A DNA stretch of 23,320 bases from IMG/VR virus record IMGVR_UViG_3300021962_000676, positions 1 through 23,320 of that record; one strand, given 5' to 3'. The notes under the pieces are model-generated. The model saw only the letters and a program-made list of their open reading frames with translations. It searched no databases and was not told the DNA's origin. This DNA comes from a virus. Of this stretch, positions 6,217 through 22,608 are shown in pieces. How positions within the stretch are numbered: position 1 is the first letter of the stretch; every line of letters begins with the position of its first letter. A program made the translations under genes and the position numbers.

Positions 6217-6836
6217 CGTGAGAAGATCATCGTCAAAATGTTCTGCATCTTGCTGTCGCTTTTGCGGATCTTGTCTTCTGGATTGCCGCAGTAAATTTTC
6301 CGCATTCCTTGCCTTTCAAAAACGCGAGCGAGCGAATCAGAATTGAAGTGCCAAAGGTGTTCTCCCGGTCGGCGATGCTTCCACGAGGTAAACCATTTAT
6401 CTCCGAGGATGTAATGATACCAAGGCACCGAGACGACCACGCACTTCGCGTTTACCTTTGGCAGTTTTGCGAAGTGCTCGAGCGAGTCGAAGAACGTCAC
6501 TACGTCCCACGCTCCTTCCTGCCAGTCTGGATCAACGGTCACAAAGTCAGGCGCCGGATAGGGCGACACGTCGAAACCGTAAAGCGTTGCAGTCGGCTTT
6601 GCTCGGCCGATCTCTGCCAGAAACGCACCGGTGCCAAATCCCACGTCGCAGATCGTCGCAAAGTCGCCTGCGTGCTGCATCACTAGCTTCGCGCGAATCG
6701 CAGACAGTTCTGCCTGCGGGTAATTCTCATAGCGTGCGACATAGGCGTGATCATAACGCGCCGTGATCTTGCGGCTGACCGATTTGAGCGCGCCGATTTC
6801 TTTGCAGAATTTATATCCGACCGGAGGTTTGGTCAT
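6213..6836 (-). CDS. Class I SAM-dependent methyltransferase
   Basis: A 207-residue methyltransferase of the Methyltransf_23-like kind. Motif I is CDVGFGTGAFL (63-73), the acidic end of strand 2 is D89 in LYGFDVS, motif IV region is WDVVTFFDSLEHF (110-122), and VVVSVPW (133-139) is the post-IV strand. The RRPGEHLWHFNSDSLARVF segment (about 155-173) is a hallmark of small-molecule and sugar methyltransferases that accompany glycosyltransferases. It has no DNA-methyltransferase motif (no DPPY, NPPY or PC). Together with flanking glycosyltransferase genes, O-methylation of a glycan is the best guess. It overlaps its neighbours by ATGA at both ends, so the three genes form one translational unit. 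Confidence 0.85.
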   Translation of the reverse strand: MTKPPVGYKFCKEIGALKSVSRKITARYDHAYVARYENYPQAELSAIRAKLVMQHAGDFATICDVGFGTGAFLAEIGRAKPTATLYGFDVSPYPAPDFVTVDPDWQEGAWDVVTFFDSLEHFAKLPKVNAKCVVVSVPWYHYILGDKWFTSWKHRRPGEHLWHFNSDSLARVFERQGMRKIYCGNPEDKIRKSDSKMQNILTMIFSR

Positions 6837-8530
6837 GATGGATTTCGCAGCTCGAACAGTTCCTTGCCAGCCTTGTATCGCTCCGGCGAGTTATTGTGAT
6901 CATACGTTTTGTCATTCGGAGCGCGTCCGAATATTGGATGCAAATGTTCAAACGTGATGCGGTCTCGTGCGTCAATGACCACGCCGTCCTTCCACGCTCG
7001 CGCGCTGAACTCGTTGTCCGAAAAAACCGATTCGTAGCCTTCGTGAAATAGTTCTTTGCCCTGCTGCTCGTATCGAGCGCGCGAGCAAATTGCCATGCAA
7101 AGCAAAGTGTCTGTGCGATTGCCGTCATTTACCGCGATCACGAACGAATCAAATGCCGGATCTTTATCTTTGACCTCGGCCAGCAATTTCTCATCCCAAC
7201 CGAGAGACGGCACCCAGTCGTCCGAGAGCTGAACCAAGATGTCTCCGGTCGCCTGCCTTGCCGCGCGATTCCATGCAGCGACGCACGACTTTTTGTCAGA
7301 GACTACGCTGAGAAAATAATCAGCCATCTCCATCGAATCCTTGTCGTCCGAATCGACCGCTAAGATGTGTTCAATCTGCGACGCATTGGTGGCCGATGTG
7401 AGCCAAGCGTCACGGCAAGCGACGGCCTGAGACGAACGATGCCGCGTCGCATGGAGCAACGAGATGCGCGGAGTCTTGCCGGCGTAATACTGCGATTGCA
7501 GAAATGTTGCGCGTGCCAAGTTCCCGTGCGCGCGAAACGCACGCGCTGCCAGATCGTATCCTGCCCAAGTATACCACTTCACCTCGTGCGTCCACGGTCG
7601 GTCAGCCTCGAGCGGTTCGCGAAGCTCTAGCATTTTGTCTGCCCAATAACTTGCGCGCTGCGTGTCGTTCTTTTCAAAATACAAAAGAATCAGATGGGCA
7701 ATCGCCTCGCGGCACCACGGATAAATTGCGTGCGCTTCCATCAGGTAGGTGAGCGCCTCGCGGTGACTATTGCAGAGCTTCGCCAAGTTGATGAGCGTCT
7801 CGTAACGAAAAGCCGGTTGCAGATTAGGAAACGAAATTGCGATCTTTCCGAACGAGATTGCAGCGTTGGTATTGACCGAGCAGTAATGCTCTTGGTGAAT
7901 GTAGAAATACTGCGCGGCGACCTCGCGCACCGAGTGAGCAAGGATTCGCAGATTCCGCCGGCGGTTCTCGCGTTTAACGATTGCCGGCGAATGAATCCAG
8001 ACCGGCGCCTGCCAGTCCTCGTGCTTGTCCTTTGGCAGAAGGAGCAGGTTTTCATGAACCTCGTGATGCCAGATGCGCCGGTCGTGGAACGCGTGCCTGC
8101 GGATTGCGCGCTCGCGATACAGTCGCTTGCCGCTGCCTCGCACGTCGTAGTAAGCACGCACCATCAGCACCTCGGCCGGCAGTAGCGCGAGCTTCTCGCG
8201 GAATCCTTCGACCTTCTCGATTAAATCGTCGCAGTCAGCCCAAACCAGCCAGTCTCCGGTTGCCTGCGCGAATGCCTTGTTCCGTGCCGCTGCAAACGAA
8301 TCGACGTGGTCCCAAGCCTCGGCGCCCAACTGGTTCTTGTGCTCGCTAAAAACGAACGGAATGCCCTTCTCCGCGCACCAGTCACGCGCCATCTGTTCAG
8401 TCTCGTCCGGCTTCTTGATGCCGATGGCACGCACCAACGAAAGCTCGTCGAAGATTGGTGCGAACGAGTTCAGCATCGAAAGGATGTGCTCGATCTCGTT
8501 TCCGCAGATTACGCACAGAGAAATTCGCAT
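6833..8530 (-). CDS. Two-domain GT2-type glycosyltransferase with TPR-like middle
   Basis: A 565-residue protein. The N-terminal domain begins MRISLCVICGNEIEHIL and has FAAARNKAFAQATGDWLVW followed by ADCDD (99-102 is the metal-binding DxD region), a classical GT2/GT-A fold. The middle (about 240-350) is helical with TPR-like spacing of Ala, Tyr and Leu. A second GT-A-like domain starts at about 354 (PRISLLHATRHRSSQA) and has its own ATGDILVQLSDDW (427-439). So one chain carries two candidate catalytic sites. The start is ATG 8530: although the frame is open up to 8818, that part lies antiparallel-free inside the capsid gene and reads as Arg-rich shadow sequence. It follows the capsid terminator directly. 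Confidence 0.85.
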   Translation of the reverse strand: MRISLCVICGNEIEHILSMLNSFAPIFDELSLVRAIGIKKPDETEQMARDWCAEKGIPFVFSEHKNQLGAEAWDHVDSFAAARNKAFAQATGDWLVWADCDDLIEKVEGFREKLALLPAEVLMVRAYYDVRGSGKRLYRERAIRRHAFHDRRIWHHEVHENLLLLPKDKHEDWQAPVWIHSPAIVKRENRRRNLRILAHSVREVAAQYFYIHQEHYCSVNTNAAISFGKIAISFPNLQPAFRYETLINLAKLCNSHREALTYLMEAHAIYPWCREAIAHLILLYFEKNDTQRASYWADKMLELREPLEADRPWTHEVKWYTWAGYDLAARAFRAHGNLARATFLQSQYYAGKTPRISLLHATRHRSSQAVACRDAWLTSATNASQIEHILAVDSDDKDSMEMADYFLSVVSDKKSCVAAWNRAARQATGDILVQLSDDWVPSLGWDEKLLAEVKDKDPAFDSFVIAVNDGNRTDTLLCMAICSRARYEQQGKELFHEGYESVFSDNEFSARAWKDGVVIDARDRITFEHLHPIFGRAPNDKTYDHNNSPERYKAGKELFELRNPS

Positions 8531-8548
8531 GACGCTTTGCGATCTGTC

Positions 8549-8590
8549 AAAAACAAGAAACCCTGCGCCGGTAAAAGCGCAGGGTTCTCG
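8549..8590 (-). terminator. Intrinsic terminator after the major capsid gene
   Basis: On the minus strand, CCCTGCGC, an 8-base loop TTTTACCG, and GCGCAGGG form a perfect 8-bp GC-rich stem (arms 8577-8584 and 8561-8568). Flanking A and T bases extend it with one bulge. The 3' arm is followed by TTTCTTGTTTTT (8560-8549). It lies 18 bases or more after the capsid stop at 8608 and just before the glycosyltransferase start, so it would limit read-through into the glycan and tail genes. Confidence 0.88.
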
Positions 8591-8607
8591 AAGCGAACCA
8601 GATTGCT

Positions 8608-9576
8608 TTAGCTGTATTGCGTGGTGATCAACTGAGCCGCGTTCGAATTGACAACCTTCTCGGCGACGTAATGCGAAGATCGCACGACGTTCGACCGGAT
8701 CGTCTCGTCGCGGTAGGTCGTCACGCCGATGACCGGACCATACTCGGACCAGTTGAGCGTGAAGCCAGCACCGCCGCCGAAGTAGCCGGCGCCGCCATCG
8801 GAGACCGAGCCGACCCAAGCCAGCGTGTTGCTCCAGATATTGGAGCTAGAGAATGCAACACCTTCGTTGGCGCTGTCGTAGGACGATCGACCGATCAGCA
8901 CTTCCTGCACGCCCAGCGCCTCGGCAGCAGCCGCGAGACCGACGTTCAGGAACGTGTCGGACGAAACACCAGCACCGCGCAGGCGGTTCTGAAACTTCGT
9001 CGAAGCCTTGATGCGATTGTAAACAGGACTCGAAAGGACAACTCTGAGATTGTCGATCGACTCGCCCTTCGCGAGCAGACGATCTTTGCAGTCATCAACG
9101 TCAGCACCGAAATCGAACGTCGCCAGATTCGCGGCCGTGTAAGCGGTCGCAGAATTGGTCGCGGTGAAGACGGTATTGTCGAAGATTTTCGCAGCGACGC
9201 GAAGCTCGTGCGAGAGCATCAGCGAACGCTGAGAGAGCTTGCCGGCGATGACTTCAGCGTCGAAGAACCGCGCCATGTCAGCGGTCACAACGTCATCGAT
9301 GGTATTCTCGATGCCGTATTCAATCGCGGTGTAGGTGTCCTGAGTGAACGACTGCGTCGCGCGAGGATACGCACCACCGACAGCGCGCTGCTTGGCGCTC
9401 TGCTTGAGAAGTTGCGCTTCCTTGAGGAGAAAGGTCGGATACTGCCCAGCGCGCACTGGCACGTTGAGCACTGGCATGACCTTGGTTCCGATGAGTCCGT
9501 TCTCCCAGTCTTTCGACTGTTCGAGGACACCGGCGATATCGCCACGGAATACCGCGGCTGCATTTGAGTAAGCCAT
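8608..9576 (-). CDS. Major capsid protein (HK97-fold)
   Basis: A 322-residue major capsid protein, directly after a decoration protein and a protease/scaffold gene. The sequence has the usual features of this family: an N-terminal arm (AVFRGDIAGVLEQSKDW), an extended strand with GGAYPRATQSFTQDTYTAI (about 67-85), the IENTIDDVVTADMARFFD region, a long spine-like helix with LMLSHELRVAAKIFD (about 119-133), LRVVLSSPVYNRIKAS (about 177-192), and a C-terminal AGFTLNWSEYGPVIGVTTYRDE block. It has no long N-terminal delta domain; scaffolding is supplied by the separate upstream gene. The leader before ATG 9576 is A/T-rich (TTAAAAATTTACTCAA) with no SD, striking for a gene that must be highly expressed. 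Confidence 0.9.
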   Translation of the reverse strand: MAYSNAAAVFRGDIAGVLEQSKDWENGLIGTKVMPVLNVPVRAGQYPTFLLKEAQLLKQSAKQRAVGGAYPRATQSFTQDTYTAIEYGIENTIDDVVTADMARFFDAEVIAGKLSQRSLMLSHELRVAAKIFDNTVFTATNSATAYTAANLATFDFGADVDDCKDRLLAKGESIDNLRVVLSSPVYNRIKASTKFQNRLRGAGVSSDTFLNVGLAAAAEALGVQEVLIGRSSYDSANEGVAFSSSNIWSNTLAWVGSVSDGGAGYFGGGAGFTLNWSEYGPVIGVTTYRDETIRSNVVRSSHYVAEKVVNSNAAQLITTQYS

Positions 9577-9967: not shown

Positions 9968-10942
9968 TTAGAGTTTGATCAGTTCGCCGGCCTGCACGCG
10001 CGAGCGGAAGGAAGCGTATTCAGTTGGATTGTTTTTCACCGAGAACGAGATGGCGGCAGCCTTGTCGCCTTTGAGTTCGACGCACTTCGCGGCGACGAGG
10101 GTCTCAAATTTCGACTCGACCTTCGCAGGCGCAGCAGCCTCGGCAGAGACCGAAGCGACAGCAGGAGCGCCAAAGGTCTTGGCGAATTCCTTCAGCGCAG
10201 ATTCAGCAGCGAACTTAGCCGCGAGTTGCACCGCTTCGGTTTGAGCGCTCATGGCAGCAGCCGCATCCGGCTTCTTGTCTTGAGGCGCAATCGCCTCGAG
10301 CTTCGTCATGCGCTCATTCATAGACATGATGGCCGATTCGATCATGGCCGCGATTTCTTTTTGCAATTCTGGATTCATATTTAGGAGTTCGATTTCAATT
10401 TCAGGCGGTTCCGATCCGATTTGAATCGTATCGGTGCCAGTATTATCGGTCTGAAGTTGATTCAGTTTCCGAGAAAAGAAGCCTGCCGGATTCGCCGCAG
10501 GGTCGCTCACGATGTCTACGGAATAAATTTCCGAGCATCGTTGCAGCATTGTCTTCTTGTCCGAGGACATTTCACTCGGACCAGAAAACGCAATGGACAG
10601 TCCGAACGTGTCAGGAATCTTGTTCGCGATCTCCAGTATGTAATTCCGATGCGGAGATGACTGGAGCAGATTCAAATCACCGATCAGTTTTTGGCCGACG
10701 ATGCTGAAGTTATCGATGTAACCAACGATATCGCCGGCGCCAGAGTTGTGATTCAGATTCACCTTGAGTCCGCCGGCATACGATTCCGCTGCGGTCTTGA
10801 CCTGTTCCAAGGTCTTCGAGTCGATGACCACTTTGTGACCCAAGGCCACGCCCTCGGTGATCAGCGAGACACCACGAATGATGCCTTTGACCTCATCGAT
10901 TACGCCGGCAGCCGCTGAAAATGAAATGATATCCGCCATCAT
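9968..10942 (-). CDS. Prohead protease fused to scaffold
   Basis: A 324-residue protein with two parts. Residues 10-157 are a phage prohead serine protease: GVIDEVKGIIRGVSLITEG, KVNLNHNSGAGDIVGYI with candidate catalytic H65, IPDTFGLSIAFSG with candidate S116, and CSEIYSVDIVSDPAANPAG (136-154), which ends this family. Residues about 185-324 are Ala/Glu/Lys-rich and helical, the profile of a scaffold, ending in a conserved-looking basic and polar tail (YASFRSRVQAGELIKL). This is the lambda C/Nu3 layout. An in-frame ATG at 10378 (M189) could start a 136-residue scaffold alone. The start is ATG 10942 or the next codon at 10939. Which residues are catalytic is inferred from family pattern. Confidence 0.82.
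   Translation of the reverse strand: MMADIISFSAAAGVIDEVKGIIRGVSLITEGVALGHKVVIDSKTLEQVKTAAESYAGGLKVNLNHNSGAGDIVGYIDNFSIVGQKLIGDLNLLQSSPHRNYILEIANKIPDTFGLSIAFSGPSEMSSDKKTMLQRCSEIYSVDIVSDPAANPAGFFSRKLNQLQTDNTGTDTIQIGSEPPEIEIELLNMNPELQKEIAAMIESAIMSMNERMTKLEAIAPQDKKPDAAAAMSAQTEAVQLAAKFAAESALKEFAKTFGAPAVASVSAEAAAPAKVESKFETLVAAKCVELKGDKAAAISFSVKNNPTEYASFRSRVQAGELIKL
10376..10378 (-). promoter_or_regulatory. Possible internal start codon for separate scaffold
   Basis: ATG at 10378-10376 is in frame with the protease-scaffold gene (codon 189) and stands exactly at the junction between a Glu/Ile-rich linker and the helical scaffold part. The preceding bases CTAAAT resemble the A/T-rich leaders of several genes here. 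There is no SD. By analogy with lambda Nu3 it may yield a 136-residue scaffold; inference only. Confidence 0.35.
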
Positions 10943-15102: not shown

Positions 15103-18100
15103 TTAAAATCCTCCAAAGTTATTTGCTAAGAAAATGTTGCTGCCTGTTGAGGCTGAACTTGAGCCAGCAGCAATCGTGATTGCTCCGCTTCCGTTGGTAA
15201 TTGTTATGCCAGAGCCAGCCGTCAAAGTTGCTTTTGTCAGTGTATTTCCGGTCGTGTTGCCGATGAGCAACTGGCCATCGGTGTATGTCGTCTGACCTGT
15301 TCCGCCCTTCGCCACCGTAACTGTATCACTCAGAGTCGACCCAGCCGCCGTGACGGTGATCGCTGCACTCCCGTCAAAATTGACGCCATTGATCGCGCGA
15401 GGAGTAGCGAGAGCCGTGGCTGTCGCTGCGTTGCCCGTGGTAGAGCCAGACGAGCCGCTGGCATTGCCGGTTAAATTCGCGGTGATTGTGCCAGCGGTGA
15501 AATTACCAGAAGCATCGCGGGCAACAATTGCAGAGGCAGTGTTGGCTGACGCTGCCGTCGTCGCGCTGTTTGAGACTTTAAGAGCAGTCGCAATTGTATC
15601 GAGCTTCGTGTCGGCAATTGCGGCGGATGCATTGATGTCTGCGTTCACGATAACGCCTGCTGCGATTGCGGTGGCATTTCCGACGCTCGACACATCGCCA
15701 GTCAGATTCGCATTCGTCGTTACGTTTCCAGCCGTCAGTCCAGCAGCCGTGCCGGTAATGTTCGTGCCGACAAGTGATGCTGGCGTGCCAAGTGCCGGAC
15801 TAGCTCCAAAGGATGTCAGCGAGGATGCGGTAACACCGGAAGCAAGAGTCGCGCCGGTGAGCGTGCTAGCGTCTGCCGTGATAGTGATTGCCGCAGTCCC
15901 GTCAAAGTTAGTTCCGTTGATTGCGCGCGCCGTGGCCAATGCTGTTGCCGTCGCCGCGTTCCCGGTCGTCGAGCCAGACGAGCCGCTCGCGTTGCCGGTG
16001 AGATTCGCGGTGATCGTCCCGGCGGTGAAATTACCGGACGCGTCACGCGCAACGATTGCCGATGCCGTGTTGGCCGATGCTGCGGTCGTCGCTGAATTGC
16101 TGACCTTCAGCGCAGTCGCAATCGTGTCCAGCTTGGTATCGACGATCGCGGCACTCGCATTGATGTCCGCATTGACGATCACTCCAGCAGCGATTGCCGT
16201 CGCATTGCCAACGCTGGTCACATCGCCAGTGAGATTCGCGTTCGTGACTACGGTTGCGGCATTGCCGACGCTAGTGACACCTCCAGTGAGATTCGCATTT
16301 GTGATCACGGTCGCAGCGTTGCCGATGCTCGTGACACCTCCGGTCAAGTTTGCGTTCGTGACGACCGTGGCAGCGTTACCGACGCTGGTCACGCTACCAG
16401 TCAGATTTGCGTTTGTCACCACCGTGGCCGCAAAGCTGCCGGTGCCGCTGCCAGTCACGCCTCCGGTGAGCGTGATCGTCTGGTCGCCGGTGTTAGCTCC
16501 AGAGACCGAGGTCGTGCCGGTGACTGCAAGCGTCGGAGTCGATGCGCCAGAGACCACGACGGAATTGACCGAGGTCGGCACGATGGCGCCGAGCGTCAGA
16601 CTGATGGCCGGCGTGGTCGTAGATGTCGCAACGGTGCCGGAGACTCCGTTCGCCGTGGTCACCGACACGCTCGTGACTGTGCCGCTTCCTCCAGCCGCGA
16701 CGAAGGAAGTGTTCGTGCCGTCGCTCTGAAGCACCTTGCCGCTCGCTCCGACCTGCGACGGAAGCAGCGCGTTCAGCGCATCATTCGCCGTCGTCTGACC
16801 CGTGCCACCCTTGGCGATGGTCACCGTGTCCGAGAGGGTCGACCCGGCAGCCGTTACAGTAATATTCGCACTCCCGTCGAAGCTCGTGCCGTTTATCGTT
16901 CTCGCAGTTGCAAGCGCGGTTGCGGTCGATGCATTCCCGGTCAGCGCAGCGGTGATCGTGCCTGCGGTGAAGTTGCCAGACGCATCACGAGCCACGATTG
17001 CGGAAGCTGTATTCGCCGACGCCGCAGTCGTGGCAGAGTTCGAGACCTTCGACGCGGTCGAGATCGTCGCGAGCTTCGTATCCACGATGGCCGCGCTTGC
17101 GTTGATATCAGCGTTGACGATCACGCCCGCTGCAATCGCGGTGGCGTTCCCAGTGCTCGTGACATCGCCGGTCAAATTTGCGTTCGTGACTACGGTCGCT
17201 GCAAAGCTGCCCGTGCCACTTCCAGTGACTCCACCAGTCAGCGTGATGGTCTGATCGCCGGTGTTCGTTCCGCTCACCGCGGTTGTGCCAGTAACTGCAA
17301 GCGCCGGCGTCGAGGAACCGGACAGAGTCACGGCGTTGACGGTCGTCGGCGTGATTGCACCGAGCGTCAGGCTGATTGCTGGCGTCGTCGTGCTGGTCGC
17401 GACCGTTCCCGAGACACCGTTTGCGGTCGTGACCGAAACACTCGTCACCGTGCCAGAGCCGCCTGCCGCAGTGATCGTAATCGATCCCGGTGCGTTCGCG
17501 ATCGTGACACCGCTGCCGGCGGTCAGCGTTGCCTTTGCGAAATCTCCGTTTGAGCCGATGAGCAACTGTCCATCGGTTGACGCTCCGACGAGATCCAGAA
17601 TTGAAGTGACGCCGCCACCGCCGCCGCCCGTGCCACGCGCTGCGCTTAGAGTCCACGCAGATGTGTTTCGCGATGGCTTATCCTTGTTGTCATCAGTGTT
17701 CGAGACGTAGGAATCGCCATTGTATGCAACGAGGTCGAGGCGCTGATATCTTTCGCTCGCCTGCCACTTGCCTCGCGGATTCAAACCCTTCGGCTCGGCA
17801 AATTCTTTTCGCAGTTGGTCAATCTGATTGGCTCTTGGAAACCGTGAAAGCTCGTCGATGACGATTGATTTTACCTTGGACGGAATCTCCATTGCCGCCG
17901 CAGCGATCAAGTCTTTCGCCTGCTGTTCGATTTCCTTCGTCTTGTTTTTTTCCGCCAGCAGCACCGAGTATTTCGCGGCCGTGGTTCGTTCCAGATTGCG
18001 AAGCAGTTCGTCAACTTTTTCGGTCAGATTGATTTCTATGGAATCTGCCAACTCGCCTGATTTGTTTTTCGCAAATTCCTCAAGCTCGCTGCGAAGTTGC

Positions 18101-18243
18101 GGCTCGATCACCTCGAGGTTTTTTTCAATTTCGTCCGTCAGAAATTGCCGCATCTGCGGAAGCTGCTCGACGAGTTCTTTCAACTCGGTTCGCTGAATTA
18201 GAGCCAGTTCAACCAGACGTTCGATTTTGAGTTGGGTATCCAT
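15103..18243 (-). CDS. Long tail fibre with coiled-coil base and repeated shaft
   Basis: A 1,046-residue fibre. Residues 1-150 are charged and coiled-coil (LKIERLVELALIQRTELKEL and on), likely the virion attachment part. Residues 153-204 form a carbohydrate-binding-like module (NPRGKWQASERYQRLDLVAY then NGDSYVS), like CBM5/12 fibre modules. A Gly-rich hinge follows (204-211). The rest is a Thr/Ala/Ser/Val-rich shaft made of repeats: two copies of a 98-residue unit, four copies of a 19-residue unit, and three copies of a 115-130-residue unit. It ends GSNIFLANNFGGF. ATG 18243 is chosen; a TTG at 18258 overlaps the portal stop (TTGA) exactly as in the terminase gene and is a fair alternative. 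Role: host recognition; shaft length may vary. Confidence 0.85.
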   Translation of the reverse strand: MDTQLKIERLVELALIQRTELKELVEQLPQMRQFLTDEIEKNLEVIEPQLRSELEEFAKNKSGELADSIEINLTEKVDELLRNLERTTAAKYSVLLAEKNKTKEIEQQAKDLIAAAAMEIPSKVKSIVIDELSRFPRANQIDQLRKEFAEPKGLNPRGKWQASERYQRLDLVAYNGDSYVSNTDDNKDKPSRNTSAWTLSAARGTGGGGGGVTSILDLVGASTDGQLLIGSNGDFAKATLTAGSGVTIANAPGSITITAAGGSGTVTSVSVTTANGVSGTVATSTTTPAISLTLGAITPTTVNAVTLSGSSTPALAVTGTTAVSGTNTGDQTITLTGGVTGSGTGSFAATVVTNANLTGDVTSTGNATAIAAGVIVNADINASAAIVDTKLATISTASKVSNSATTAASANTASAIVARDASGNFTAGTITAALTGNASTATALATARTINGTSFDGSANITVTAAGSTLSDTVTIAKGGTGQTTANDALNALLPSQVGASGKVLQSDGTNTSFVAAGGSGTVTSVSVTTANGVSGTVATSTTTPAISLTLGAIVPTSVNSVVVSGASTPTLAVTGTTSVSGANTGDQTITLTGGVTGSGTGSFAATVVTNANLTGSVTSVGNAATVVTNANLTGGVTSIGNAATVITNANLTGGVTSVGNAATVVTNANLTGDVTSVGNATAIAAGVIVNADINASAAIVDTKLDTIATALKVSNSATTAASANTASAIVARDASGNFTAGTITANLTGNASGSSGSTTGNAATATALATARAINGTNFDGTAAITITADASTLTGATLASGVTASSLTSFGASPALGTPASLVGTNITGTAAGLTAGNVTTNANLTGDVSSVGNATAIAAGVIVNADINASAAIADTKLDTIATALKVSNSATTAASANTASAIVARDASGNFTAGTITANLTGNASGSSGSTTGNAATATALATPRAINGVNFDGSAAITVTAAGSTLSDTVTVAKGGTGQTTYTDGQLLIGNTTGNTLTKATLTAGSGITITNGSGAITIAAGSSSASTGSNIFLANNFGGF
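15259..15282 (-). repeat. 24-nt near-identical direct repeat, fibre 3' copy
   Basis: The segment encodes part of TDGQLLIG. On the plus strand it reads GCCGATGAGCAACTG, one variable base, CCATCGGT, and matches the copy at 17554-17577 with one mismatch. The spacing is 2,295 bases, a multiple of three. Confidence 0.8.
15286..15681 (-). repeat. Fibre shaft unit B, copy 3
   Basis: About 132 codons beginning GNATAIAAGVIVNADINASA and ending KGGTGQTT. It matches copies 1 (16789-17151) and 2 (15865-16209) closely in protein but differs at many third codon positions. Core shared element: SNSATTAASANTASAIVARD then ASGNFTAGTIT. Confidence 0.85.
15865..16209 (-). repeat. Fibre shaft unit B, copy 2
   Basis: About 115 codons, directly after the 57-nt array (the first GN residues are shared with its last unit). 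Same protein pattern as copies 1 and 3, including a GNASGSSGSTTGNAATATALA stretch also found in copy 3 but missing in copy 1, so copies 2 and 3 are the closer pair. Confidence 0.85.
16204..16431 (-). repeat. Four tandem 57-nt repeats in fibre shaft
   Basis: Four in-frame units at 16375-16431, 16318-16374, 16261-16317 and 16204-16260. Each encodes 19 residues of form AATVVTNANLTGxVTSVGN, with small changes (V/I, S/G/D). The protein is nearly identical, but codons differ between units. Confidence 0.92.
16394..16689 (-). repeat. Fibre shaft unit A, copy 2
   Basis: A 98-codon unit: GSGTVTSVSVTTANGVSGTV, a Thr/Ser-rich core, then VSGxNTGDQTITLTGGVTGS and ATVVTNANLTG. The counterpart is at 17168-17463. 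Its last residues are shared with the first unit of the 57-nt array. Confidence 0.85.
16789..17151 (-). repeat. Fibre shaft unit B, copy 1
   Basis: A 121-codon unit ending KGGTGQTT. It has the short AALTGNASTATALATAR form without the Gly/Ser insertion of copies 2 and 3. It follows unit A copy 1, giving the order A1-B1-A2-(57-nt array)-B2-B3 in gene direction. Confidence 0.85.
17168..17463 (-). repeat. Fibre shaft unit A, copy 1
   Basis: A 98-codon unit matching 16394-16689 at about the same residues, with changes such as ITPTTVNAVTLSG versus IVPTSVNSVVVSG. DNA differs at many synonymous sites. Confidence 0.85.
17554..17577 (-). repeat. 24-nt near-identical direct repeat, fibre 5' copy
   Basis: This is the partner of 15259-15282, also within a TDGQLLIG motif followed in both cases by KATLTAGSG. 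One mismatch in 24 bases. Confidence 0.8.
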
Positions 18244-18254
18244 CGATGAATTGA

Positions 18255-20534
18255 TCAATTCGATTTCTCGGTCTGAGTCGAACCGTCAGGAGTTGATGTG
18301 GCCGGCCTTGAAAAATTGATGAGTTCTGCGATGCGACTGGCTTCTTTGACTTGATCAGCCTGCACATCGAGTCGCTCAACGATTTTTGTCGCCCACGAAT
18401 ATCCTTCGTCTCCGCCCCAGCCCATCCACGCCTGCCATCCGCGACCCTGCTCGCTCCACGTCTCGCCCTTTTTATCGACCTCGTGACGATCAAAGAATGC
18501 CTTCATGCGCTTGACGCTATCCACTGAGAGCGGACGCTTGTTCATGATGTCGCGCGCGCGTGCAATTCCTACGCTGGTCATTCCGCGTTGAGACGGTGGC
18601 TTTGATGCGCGCACCTCGAGCGAGCGCTTCGCATTCTGCACCATCGCATCGGTCGGAATGTAACTGTCGGTTTCGAAATTGATGGTGACGCAGTCCGATT
18701 CGAGCGCGACGTCCTTCTTCGGTAAGTTGGCGACGCTGGCTGAAACTGATTGGGCTGCTTCCTTTGCCATGCCAGCAGAGATCATAAGCGACTGCGCGGA
18801 TTCTGGAGTCAGATCGCCCTTGCGAAGATTCTCAATGATCGCGAGCACCGCCGCAATTTGTGCGCCGTTTAACGGAGCAATCTGCGCGGAGATGTCTGGG
18901 AACGCTTCAGCACCGGCGACATCGCTCGGAACGGCATCACCTGATCCACCGCTTCCGCCACTTGAATCAACCTGCGCCGCTGCTGCTGCCGCTCCGACGT
19001 TGTCGCCTGCCGCTGCCGCCGCCGCTGGCGTCGAAGGAAGCGAACTAGTCACGAGACGAATCGACGTTTCCGGCACGCCGTATTTCGTCGAAAGTTCCTT
19101 GATGAAGCTCGCCTCGATTGCGATCTGCTCGAGCCGCGAGAAAGCGTCGGTGCCTTCTTCGCTCGCGATCTCTGCCAAGCTCTTTGCGCCTTGCCGATTC
19201 TCGTTCAGATTCGCCGCAGACTCGCGACCGACATCGATCGATAGCTTGGCCGGGAATCTCCACTCGCCGGCAGTCGCTCGACGCAGCGCCTGCACCATTG
19301 TCTCGCCGGCCTTCAGGCTTGGCGCAGTTAAATCTCCGCGAGCGATTGCGTCGATCAGCACCGCGTTTTTGATCGGGTCCAGAACCTTGTCCACAAGCAC
19401 GCCCTGATGACGCGTGAACACGCGATCAGCCGCAGCGAATTCTGCGCGCACGCTCGGACCTTGGTAACCTTGCGAACCGAAAAGCACCGCCTGCGGTATT
19501 CCGACCGCGAGCGAAATCTCGTGCATGAGATGCTGCACGAATCCGGTGAACGCCTGCGATGGTCGCGACGGCATGACCTCGATTTTGTCCGCGTTGCCGA
19601 AGTAACGAATCATGCCGACATCGCTGAGTTCGTTCTGCTGCTGCTGCCCGTTGCCTAGCGTGACCGCTGGATTCGGCGTAAAAAGATTGCGTGGATTCGC
19701 CGTGCCACGATCCGAAAATACAAGTGCAGCCTGCTGCGACGCAAAGCGCACGCCAGCTTTTTCAGCCTCGAGAATTTCATAAAGCGAGCGAGCGGTGCGG
19801 ATGCCAGAATGAAAGTCGGTGACGCCGCGGTATTGATCGACGCGGAACGGGTCAAAGTAGTGGCAGAAATTAGCCGCCGGAACGTCCTCTGGATTGAAGT
19901 AAACGCCAGAGCGATCGACTCGGAAGATTCGATATGCAATCGGCTCGCCGAAATCGTTTGTCACAATCCCTTGGTAATAATTTTGCCCGACGTCCGATTG
20001 CATATTCGGATTTCCAATGCGAGTCGCCGGAACGAGCTGAATCTTCAGACCTTCGCCGGCGCGCCGAATCACGAATCCGCAATCGCCATCCACCGGACGT
20101 TCCTCTGCCGCGAGCTGGATTAACTTTTTGAACGAGTGCCTGCCGGTAACGTCCGCGCTTTTGCACCACGCGTGAAAGTATTCGGAGACCTCCGCGTTGT
20201 ATTCGCGGTCACCAGTCATCGGCGAGTATTCGGTCGGCGTGAGATTGATGCCGAAGACACGAGACGACGCGCGGATCTCTGGCACGTTCTCCACCAGATC
20301 GCGAGCTTCCCACATCATGATGATGCGGTCGCGAACCGTCTGCGGTGACTCGCTGACCTGTCCGTATTGCTTCGGATTGTAGAGTCGATTCGTCCTCGCC
20401 GCGTTATACTCGAAGAGCGCCTTCGTCACGCGCGACTCCAGCCGGCTCAATCCCCAAGACGGCGCGACGTTGTCGATGGCTTTATCCAGCCACGTTTTAT
20501 TGGCGACAATTTGCGACGGGTCGAAGGTTTCCAT
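18255..20534 (-). CDS. Lambda-type portal protein with extended C-terminus
   Basis: A 759-residue portal; lambda gpB is about 530. Residues 30-500 follow the lambda portal family: YNAARTNRLYNPKQYGQ (43-59), RDLVENVPEIRASSRVFGIN (78-97), EERPVDGDCGFVIRR (144-158), the GIRTARSLYEILEAEKAG region (244-261) and a FGSQGYQGPSVRAEFAAADR clip/stem region (352-371). After a poly-Ala/Ser-Gly linker (503-535) comes a LNGAQIAAVLAIIENLRKGD helical element (555-574) known from other portal C-termini, and then residues 616-725, a separate module with YIPTDAMVQNAKRSL, TSVGIARARDIMNKRPLSVD, FFDRHEVDKKGE and WGGDEGYSWATKIV. This last module recurs in phage head proteins; function unknown. ATG 20534 follows the gpW-like stop by two bases. 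Confidence 0.9.
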   Translation of the reverse strand: METFDPSQIVANKTWLDKAIDNVAPSWGLSRLESRVTKALFEYNAARTNRLYNPKQYGQVSESPQTVRDRIIMMWEARDLVENVPEIRASSRVFGINLTPTEYSPMTGDREYNAEVSEYFHAWCKSADVTGRHSFKKLIQLAAEERPVDGDCGFVIRRAGEGLKIQLVPATRIGNPNMQSDVGQNYYQGIVTNDFGEPIAYRIFRVDRSGVYFNPEDVPAANFCHYFDPFRVDQYRGVTDFHSGIRTARSLYEILEAEKAGVRFASQQAALVFSDRGTANPRNLFTPNPAVTLGNGQQQQNELSDVGMIRYFGNADKIEVMPSRPSQAFTGFVQHLMHEISLAVGIPQAVLFGSQGYQGPSVRAEFAAADRVFTRHQGVLVDKVLDPIKNAVLIDAIARGDLTAPSLKAGETMVQALRRATAGEWRFPAKLSIDVGRESAANLNENRQGAKSLAEIASEEGTDAFSRLEQIAIEASFIKELSTKYGVPETSIRLVTSSLPSTPAAAAAAGDNVGAAAAAAQVDSSGGSGGSGDAVPSDVAGAEAFPDISAQIAPLNGAQIAAVLAIIENLRKGDLTPESAQSLMISAGMAKEAAQSVSASVANLPKKDVALESDCVTINFETDSYIPTDAMVQNAKRSLEVRASKPPSQRGMTSVGIARARDIMNKRPLSVDSVKRMKAFFDRHEVDKKGETWSEQGRGWQAWMGWGGDEGYSWATKIVERLDVQADQVKEASRIAELINFSRPATSTPDGSTQTEKSN

Positions 20535-20814: not shown

Positions 20815-22608
20815 CTAGGCCACGGCTTGCGGGACGTGATAGCGAATCAGACCAGCAATAGTCGCTACGCATAGCATCATCGCCGAAGTGTCCAGACCGT
20901 GATTCGGCGCGTTGCTTTTGACCTCGCGCCATTCCCAGACGCCGGTGCGGATCTCGACCTTGTGCTCACCGCGGATGTGCTCGAGGTAGATCGGATTAAC
21001 GTCTGCCGGCAATTCCCACTTCAGATCGCCTCGGCCTTCGAGAGCAGATGAAAGCACGTCCTTGAAGTAGTCGCCGCTCCAGTTGTAAAAATAGACGTCT
21101 CCGCCTCGGTAGTCGCTGACCTGCGGATCGGAGAATGGATAGTTCACGAGCTGACCGGTGTTCTCATCTCGAAGCGGCCACGTCCTGCGAGCGAAACCTT
21201 TCATGGAGCGCCAGCCGAAGTCTGCTGAATCGCGGTCCACGTCGCTCGGTCGGTATCCTCGGTCCTGCGCGACGCATCCGTCGGAGACCTTAAGCCGGTG
21301 CTGAAGCGCTCGAAGCTGGTCGCGCGTGTCCACTCTGCCAAAATAAAGCTGACGGTATCGCGGACCTTCTGAGGTCGAGAACGCGCCGACCTCGACCCAC
21401 CAGTGATCCTGCTGCCGGTCGATGGTCATGAATCGTCCGACCTCGTTCGGTATCTCCTCGGCGCCTGCGTAGTCGGTCACCTTGTAATCCGACTTCCCGA
21501 GGAAGATGTTCACGACCTTTTTTTCCACAATCCACGGCAGCGCCTGCCGCTTGGTCTTGAACTCTTGGCGCAGCCTGTCGTCTCCGGTGCGCTGCGCGTG
21601 ATTCTCAGCCTGAACGAACTCCTCCACGAGCATCCGCATCGGTCGCGCGACCAGTGCCTCCACGCGAAAACTCTGCACCTCCTTTGGCGCTGTCGGATTT
21701 TGCGGAACGTAGATTCCTGAGCGTTTCCAAGCCTCGCGCGTCGTGTCCGCGTCTGGACTCTCATGACCACAATGGATGCAGCGGAATCGGCAGGAATCGA
21801 CTGCCTTGGCTACATCCCAAGTGTCGTCGTCACGCTTGGCTGTGCGGTCCCAAACGACGCCGGCATATTTGCCTGCTTCGCTCGTCGTCTGCGCGAATTG
21901 AATCGGATGAATCTTCGAGCACGCTGGACACTTGGCCGACCACTCTTGCTGGTTGCCGGTGCGGTAGCTCGTGTCCTCCACGTTGCCAGTCTCGGCGTCC
22001 ATGATCGGCGCTTGGCTTATGTTGTAAATCTTCGAGCGTCCGACCTCCTCGAACTTCGAGACGCGAGCAATGGCGTGCGCGTAAATCTCCTGCCAGCGCG
22101 GAAGCCAAATCTCGTCGTTCACTTTGTAACGAATCGACTGCGACTGCTGCGAGGAAAGCGACGCAGCGTTCATGACAAGAAAGAATCCGCCGAAGTAAAT
22201 TTCGGTAGTCATGCGCTGCGGACCTGCACGCGGAAGCATTGCGGCCACTGGCCGGCAGCGTTCAATCAAAGGATTCAACCGCGACTTCGCGTGTCGCTCG
22301 ACCATCTCCTCGGTCTGCATCGTCCACGAGATCGGACCAGCGTCATTCGCGATGAGCCACGGCACCCAGATGTCGGCCACGAGCGTGCCGCCGATCTGCA
22401 CCGCCTTTCGAAAATGCACTCGACGCACCAGCGGATTCTGGAGTGCGTCGAAGATTGGAATCAGCCACGGAGTGATCCGCGCGTTGAACGGTCCCGGCGT
22501 CGCGTAGCTTTCCGGCAGCGTGATGTGCCGGCGCGCCCAGTCGTAAATCGGCGAGCGGTCTGGCTGCGGCAGGCGCAGCTTAGAAAGGATAGCGTCGGAA
22601 GCGGTCAA
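20815..22608 (-). CDS. Terminase large subunit, GpA type
   Basis: A 597-residue packaging motor/nuclease of the lambda GpA (PF05876) group. Visible motifs: PGPFNARITPWLIPIFDAL (38-56), Walker A-like FRKAVQIGGT (66-75), YKVNDEIWLPRW with Walker B-type D165-E166, a Cys pair CPAC (227-230) with a second CIHC (277-280) forming a probable zinc site, the nuclease start MTIDRQQDHWWVEVG with D397, QDRGY (D449), and NHGLDTSAMML with D573. Length is slightly under lambda gpA (641). The only sensible start is TTG at 22608, whose TTGA overlaps the stop of the upstream gene. No ATG lies within the first 90 codons. Confidence 0.93.
   Translation of the reverse strand: MTASDAILSKLRLPQPDRSPIYDWARRHITLPESYATPGPFNARITPWLIPIFDALQNPLVRRVHFRKAVQIGGTLVADIWVPWLIANDAGPISWTMQTEEMVERHAKSRLNPLIERCRPVAAMLPRAGPQRMTTEIYFGGFFLVMNAASLSSQQSQSIRYKVNDEIWLPRWQEIYAHAIARVSKFEEVGRSKIYNISQAPIMDAETGNVEDTSYRTGNQQEWSAKCPACSKIHPIQFAQTTSEAGKYAGVVWDRTAKRDDDTWDVAKAVDSCRFRCIHCGHESPDADTTREAWKRSGIYVPQNPTAPKEVQSFRVEALVARPMRMLVEEFVQAENHAQRTGDDRLRQEFKTKRQALPWIVEKKVVNIFLGKSDYKVTDYAGAEEIPNEVGRFMTIDRQQDHWWVEVGAFSTSEGPRYRQLYFGRVDTRDQLRALQHRLKVSDGCVAQDRGYRPSDVDRDSADFGWRSMKGFARRTWPLRDENTGQLVNYPFSDPQVSDYRGGDVYFYNWSGDYFKDVLSSALEGRGDLKWELPADVNPIYLEHIRGEHKVEIRTGVWEWREVKSNAPNHGLDTSAMMLCVATIAGLIRYHVPQAVA

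Follow-up and report, generated by a model that had tools for sequence, protein, structure and literature searches.

A predicted mobile helical module on a lambda-family phage portal, present also as a small bacterial gene

Introduction

Phage portals to which further domains have been added are already known. According to the available parts of two publications, PBECR, 2H and InPase domains are fused to portal or MuF proteins among the so-called polyvalent proteins (PMC5512222), and a Nudix domain has been described in fusion with MuF, with the portal or with the capsid-processing peptidase (PMC9503650). The closest described relatives of the portal analyzed here are lambda gpB and the Phage_portal_2 family (PF05136). 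The portal is encoded by a virus record of 23,320 bases (this whole stretch of DNA is called the window below), and it carries at its C-terminus a module that shares with polyvalent and other head-packaged fusion proteins the occurrence of one domain on portal, MuF or head protease carriers. However, the added domains in the available text of these two sources (PMC5512222, PMC9503650) are mostly known enzymes, whereas the module has no Pfam match and exists also as a stand-alone bacterial gene. No description of it was found in the open-licence literature on portal and capsid fusions, TUDOR together with phage, DUF3140/DUF2945, PHROG 2859 or the virion proteomics of its carriers, and the available part of PMC7824862 makes no mention of it.

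The portal gene and its C-terminal extension

Judged by profile and fold, the 759-residue protein read from the minus-strand open reading frame (ORF) at 18255–20534 is a lambda-family portal with a separate module fused to it. Phage_portal_2 matches residues 77–373 (E 3.7e-39, 135.3 bits, above the curated cut-off of 32.9 bits), PHROG 21 (portal) covers residues 14–499, and the best solved match of a full-length AlphaFold model (28 alignment rows, mean pLDDT 68) in Foldseek is the mature lambda portal 8xow_B (E 3.2e-15), in agreement with the portal identity that a previous reading from sequence only had assigned. The part alike to lambda gpB in both profile and fold ends near residue 491. Lambda 'Portal protein B' in the PDB has 533 residues, so that the window portal is 226 residues longer, close to the excess of about 230 reported in that reading, and what has been added consists of two linkers, an optional hairpin and the module. 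The features of the gene are as follows:

18255–20534, minus strand: portal gene with C-terminal extension, 759 amino acids (ORF, profile and fold matches)
19062–20534, minus strand: portal core, residues 1–491, lambda-family portal fold (Phage_portal_2, PHROG 21, Foldseek 8xow_B)
18897–19061, minus strand: low-complexity Ala/Gly/Ser linker, residues 492–546 (pLDDT <50; sequence)
18729–18890, minus strand: helical element beginning LNGAQ, residues 549–602, optional (helices, pLDDT about 77–88)
18363–18662, minus strand: module, residues 625–724 (PHROG 2859; AlphaFold; conservation)
18258–18314, minus strand: variable disordered tail, residues 741–759 (pLDDT <50)

Beyond the core, the full-length model predicts a disordered linker, a helical hairpin (549–602), a second linker (605–614) and a helical domain (about 624–741), with pLDDT below 50 at residues 492–546, 605–614 and 741–759. 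This is the succession of low-complexity linker, helical element and module that had been proposed. Neither the linkers nor the tail are basic in sequence. The helical element is more than 60% gapped in all 41 portal relatives with intact N-termini and, having no counterpart there, is considered an optional extra.

Portals of this and of other families show further variations of this tail. An LNGAQ-like element also precedes the module in a different portal family, where a PF04860 portal from a Coriobacteriia MAG (L220) has the order LNGAQ hairpin, module and MuF. Two related portals (L002 and L011) have extra pieces C-terminal to the module, namely a 'FPD.EQR.AVC' motif and DUF5824 (E 2e-4 and 3.6e-7), and the portal tail is thus a string of exchangeable modules. 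A Mu-type portal (L126) has a short Lys/Arg-rich stretch behind its module, resembling the tails of the Xanthomonas copies described below.

Three neighboring genes of the window concern the head:

20815–22608, minus strand: terminase large subunit, upstream of the portal on the same strand (PHROG 15, E 3.5e-42)
9968–10942, minus strand: candidate head protease/scaffold gene without the module, named only from its place ahead of the major capsid protein gene and the look of its sequence, with no PHROG match
8608–9576, minus strand: major capsid protein, downstream of the portal (PHROG 1005, E 6.6e-33)

We also would like to point out two other ORFs of the minus strand. The gene order is unusual at 15103–18258, where a tail-fibre-like ORF of 1051 residues comes immediately after the portal and ahead of the candidate head protease, a long way from the remaining tail genes. 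A glycosyltransferase-like ORF (6833–8818; PHROG 14945 and 13126) separates the capsid gene from the tail genes; as it opens with a TTG that falls within the capsid gene, the true start is probably located later.

A compact and highly conserved helical domain

The motifs GIARARDIMN, FFDRHEVDKKGE and WGGDEGYSWATKIV, on which the sequence-only reading had based its module, are present in the translated sequence, and the span given there (616–725) is close to the boundary used here (625–724). PHROG 2859, annotated as of unknown function, matches residues 617–727 with an E value of 7.5e-16, far above chance. Differently from a module-only family, PHROG 2859 is a whole-protein cluster without assigned function, of whose 740 positions 155–269 span the module. 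When residues 606–740 were folded alone with 83 relatives, AlphaFold predicted five helices (mean pLDDT 92.4, pTM 0.79), and in this model the module is an independent compact all-helical domain.

Searches for known relatives returned little. Twenty diverse module rows had no convincing match to any Pfam or NCBIfam model, no PDB sequence matched the module profile, and Foldseek matched no PDB fold below E 0.001. In a second structure comparison the best Z score (4.5) belonged to a designed protein, and parts of ATP synthase and ClpB followed at Z ≤4.5; these matches are taken as common helical arrangements, which decide neither for a new fold nor for a known one. The bacterial family DUF3140 (PF11338) has a similar length and a collinear RH ... 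WG(G/H)D pattern, its profile matches that of the module weakly (hhalign P 0.007–0.009, with eight other families also compared), and a TUDOR gene lies beside one of nine DUF3140 loci. However, 20 module rows gave no PF11338 match at E up to 1, and kinship between the two families is left as a lead, since one of 200 column shuffles scored as well as the real profile and the reversed profile scored better.

Identity to the window was compared for core and module over 54 portal relatives, of which 41 have intact N-termini in the alignment. Among these 41, the mean is 68.3% for the core and 73.5% for the module, the latter being the better conserved part in 34 of them; in five distant relatives the module retains 65–69% identity vs. 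34–35% for the core. In an alignment of 28 portals, including three from other portal lineages, 27 of the 37 invariant columns fall within residues 627–711. Eleven columns (G, R, F, H, G, A, W, W, G, G, G) are invariant across 84 viral and bacterial module rows, the window included, which reach down to approximately 37% identity to the window. Residues R642, R650, R659, R676, R683, H684, D687, K688 and D709 show little or no variation.

These comparisons bear on the simplest explanation of a long portal, namely that residues 500–759 merely form the crown or barrel in a family of longer portals. Portal relatives retrieved with the full-length query carry the module, and therefore within this clade it was inherited with the portal. 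However, disordered linkers set it apart from the core, it evolves more slowly than the core, and it also occurs without any portal in viruses and bacteria (see below). We consequently reject the ordinary long-portal explanation as highly improbable, and the separate domain of the sequence-only reading is upheld.

Viral carriers and a common gene slot

A tblastn search with the module found 85 places in 85 phage records, one each, a set that includes several GenBank/RefSeq pairs and many near-identical Vibrio phages; 20 of 20 viral contigs likewise hold one module each. In Pfam architectures the module takes different positions, as in Roseobacter phage CRP-811 (module-TUDOR-S78 protease-capsid), Limnohabitans phage DC31 (module-S78_2) and HRTV-28 (portal-module-MuF). 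In Vibrio phage 1.013.O the module is followed by a DUF2213-like region (E 0.002), and HGTV-1 has the two the other way round (E 0.0014), both matches being below the cut-off. A Pfam census of 58 viral carriers counted S78 (14), DUF5872 (9), Phage_capsid (6), TUDOR (5), Phage_portal (4), Phage_portal_2 (3), S78_2 (3), Portal_Mu (2), DUF2213 (2), Clp (2), ferritin (2) and ART-PolyVal (1). At least three portal families (PF05136, PF04860 and PF06074) and several protease families (S78, S78_2, ClpP and DUF2213) are thus fusion partners. Stand-alone viral copies are found in Vibrio 1.123.O, SCTP-2 and PaBG, the last one between the genes for RNA 2′-phosphotransferase and topoisomerase II. The stand-alone genes and the S78 and S78_2 fusions bear out the statement, in the sequence-only reading, that the module occurs alone or fused to protease-like proteins. 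In a search for plasmid polyvalent proteins the module was matched in only 3 of 72,556 plasmid records. Note also that two small phage proteins (L106 and L110) unite an ADP-ribosyltransferase (ART)-like domain with the module, L106 alone having no Pfam match at E 0.01.

Among predicted viral structures the module had 53 matches at E ≤0.001, and the named carriers among 50 listed structure matches include prohead protease, XkdF, Mu gp29 portal, GTA portal, TUDOR, Dps and ParB. By sequence and predicted structure the module is one mobile family. So many unrelated carriers could suggest a neutral hitchhiker, i.e., a selfish or functionless module retained by fusion, but the eleven invariant columns, maintained over rows so distant from the window, and the retention of the module as a bacterial gene argue for function, which leaves the hitchhiker explanation hardly credible.

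Gene order was examined at 113 phage loci outside the window's portal group (16 named phages, 17 module-only loci from a first scan and, among the matches listed by a second, the best 80). At 74 of these loci a portal/MuF domain precedes the module on the same strand, whether within one ORF or in a separate one, and at one locus a portal lies downstream. A protease/capsid domain is found downstream at 82 loci and upstream at three, these slot counts having been made with custom profiles, some of which were seeded from sequences judged protease-like, so that the protease label is partly our own judgement. No head gene is present at 19 loci, and 24 of the 113 carriers have no recognised partner domain. 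In the portal set, a portal/MuF domain precedes the module at 61 of 62 loci, the remaining one (L064) ending at a contig edge. At least 13 switches between portal and protease carriers are needed on a tree of 140 module sequences, which has few columns and many unresolved forks. The simplest reading of these gene orders would be a single gene slot between portal and protease, in which the module is fused to the left, with the portal C-terminus, or to the right, with the protease N-terminus, once per genome.

Such a slot would suit an assembly factor that bridges portal and protease/scaffold during procapsid nucleation, since a module bridging this contact could sit on either side of it; the fusion to either neighbor, the single copy per genome and the range of portal and protease families used as partners are all in keeping with this role. 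However, genes that share a slot can fuse through position alone, portals and proteases of such diversity would need to offer one common partner surface, and the bacterial stand-alone copies have no capsid to build. The assembly explanation thus agrees with the slot but is at odds with the bacterial copies, and we consider it rather unlikely.

The module in bacterial genomes

In bacterial and archaeal genomes 267 relatives were detected. Of the 80 ORFs retained from this set, 70 contain no other recognised domain. In 28 of the 80 loci a separate Hva1_TUDOR gene lies 28–154 bp away on the same strand, either up- or downstream; two further Hva1_TUDOR genes lie at 1.0 and 1.6 kb, and two phage-like loci have a module-TUDOR fusion. 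The TUDOR genes tested were confirmed by Pfam, and the pairing is seen in records of Pseudomonadota and Verrucomicrobiota. What is new here, as read from these predicted genes, is the presence of the module in bacteria as a small gene by itself, often with Hva1_TUDOR encoded next to it. The view of a module belonging to phage head genes consequently stands for the portal/protease slot of phages, but not as an exclusive assignment.

The module was detected in 7 of 299 genomes spread across one phylum and in 20 of 35 Xanthomonas genomes. Sixteen of 17 Xanthomonas copies possess a Lys/Ala-rich tail (15–26% Lys, ≤3% acidic residues), and the seventeenth (L242) has a short aberrant one. One of these tails resembles the histone-H1-like HC2 family, with a match below the Pfam cut-off. 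At the Xanthomonas loci (for instance L185, L195 and L213) nearly all copies finish with 'AKAAGRPYPNLVDNMAVA' after the Lys/Ala tail, which constitutes a second conserved motif. A conserved bacterial operon beyond TUDOR, for which Ku/LigD or stress genes were expected, was also considered and rejected, as a Pfam survey covering 80 of 91 neighbor ORFs picked from 24 genome loci returned Hva1_TUDOR ten times and otherwise scattered families.

A possible role inside the procapsid

In tailed-phage heads, the C-termini of portals and the N-termini of proteases and capsid precursors point into the procapsid interior. The carriers would thus place the module inside the procapsid before DNA entry, with twelve copies tethered in a ring when it sits on the portal C-terminus, and within the procapsid core when it belongs to a protease or delta-type N-terminus. 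The window portal would accordingly bear a mobile accessory domain of approximately 100 residues on a flexible arm. We suggest, with a little under an even chance of being right, that the module is a putative nucleic-acid-binding domain held in this compartment. Its conserved Arg/His/Trp surface would be the putative binding site, and if it does bind nucleic acid, the module would contact the genome during packaging, so as to hold, order or shield the DNA at the portal, and it may exit together with the genome. In bacteria, the TUDOR partner or the histone-H1-like tail would play a similar DNA-bound role.

Several observations hint at nucleic acid: the near-invariant Arg, His, Asp and Lys residues (the set from R642 to K688), the mildly positive mean net charge of the module copies (+5 to +6), the Lys/Ala-rich tails in Xanthomonas, the Hva1_TUDOR neighbors, the ferritin-like domain in two of the 58 viral carriers, two structure matches named 'DNA-binding protein Dps' and 'ParB/Sulfiredoxin' (one each) and, as a further hint, the gene neighborhood of the PaBG copy. 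Against DNA binding, no known DNA-binding fold was matched in the PDB by Foldseek or in the second structure comparison, and the names Dps and ParB attach to the carriers and not to the module. The positive charge is modest, and some copies are acidic, with a range down to −14; the linkers and tail of the window portal are, as stated above, non-basic, and the basic tail occurs mainly in Xanthomonas, with its HC2 match under the cut-off. The carriers without a recognised partner domain and the loci without a head gene also count against the proposal.

The same location would also suit an injected effector, that is, a small host- or defense-directed domain, perhaps an unrecognised enzyme, riding on a head-packaged protein and delivered with the genome in the manner of polyvalent-protein domains. 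In the available parts of the respective sources, Nudix fusions to MuF, portal or capsid-processing peptidase are read as packaging and injection (PMC9503650), and the PBECR, 2H and InPase fusions to portal or MuF are read in the same way (PMC5512222). The ART-like domain joined to the module in two phage carriers and the single ART-PolyVal match among the viral carriers agree with such a role, in which the near-invariant R/H/D/W set could be catalytic. However, a resident bacterial gene with a TUDOR neighbor, present in 20 of the 35 Xanthomonas genomes, is unlike a toxin or counter-defense domain; effectors usually diversify, whereas the module is nearly frozen; and PADLOC gave no substantial match to a defense-system model (one member of 20, at 0.0072). 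Delivery as an effector is thus, in our opinion, unlikely.

Extending the proposal of a nucleic-acid-binding domain to all its carriers leads to a broader and more tentative possibility, which we hold with clear reservation: an undescribed nucleoid-type domain may be common to cells and viruses. Bacteria would use it in a two-protein system with Hva1_TUDOR, or with a histone-like tail, and bacterial and archaeal tailed viruses would mount it in their heads on portal, protease or capsid precursor, with as many as twelve tethered domains handling DNA at its point of entry.

Significance

The module is a near-invariant domain of bacterial and haloarchaeal tailed viruses and of bacterial chromosomes, without a Pfam or NCBIfam model or a solved relative. 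The constant position between portal and protease indicates where a search should begin, and the small bacterial copies ease biochemistry. If the module is injected, it would represent a widespread effector of a kind not yet recognised; if it binds DNA, these viruses would have added a DNA-handling ring to their portal.
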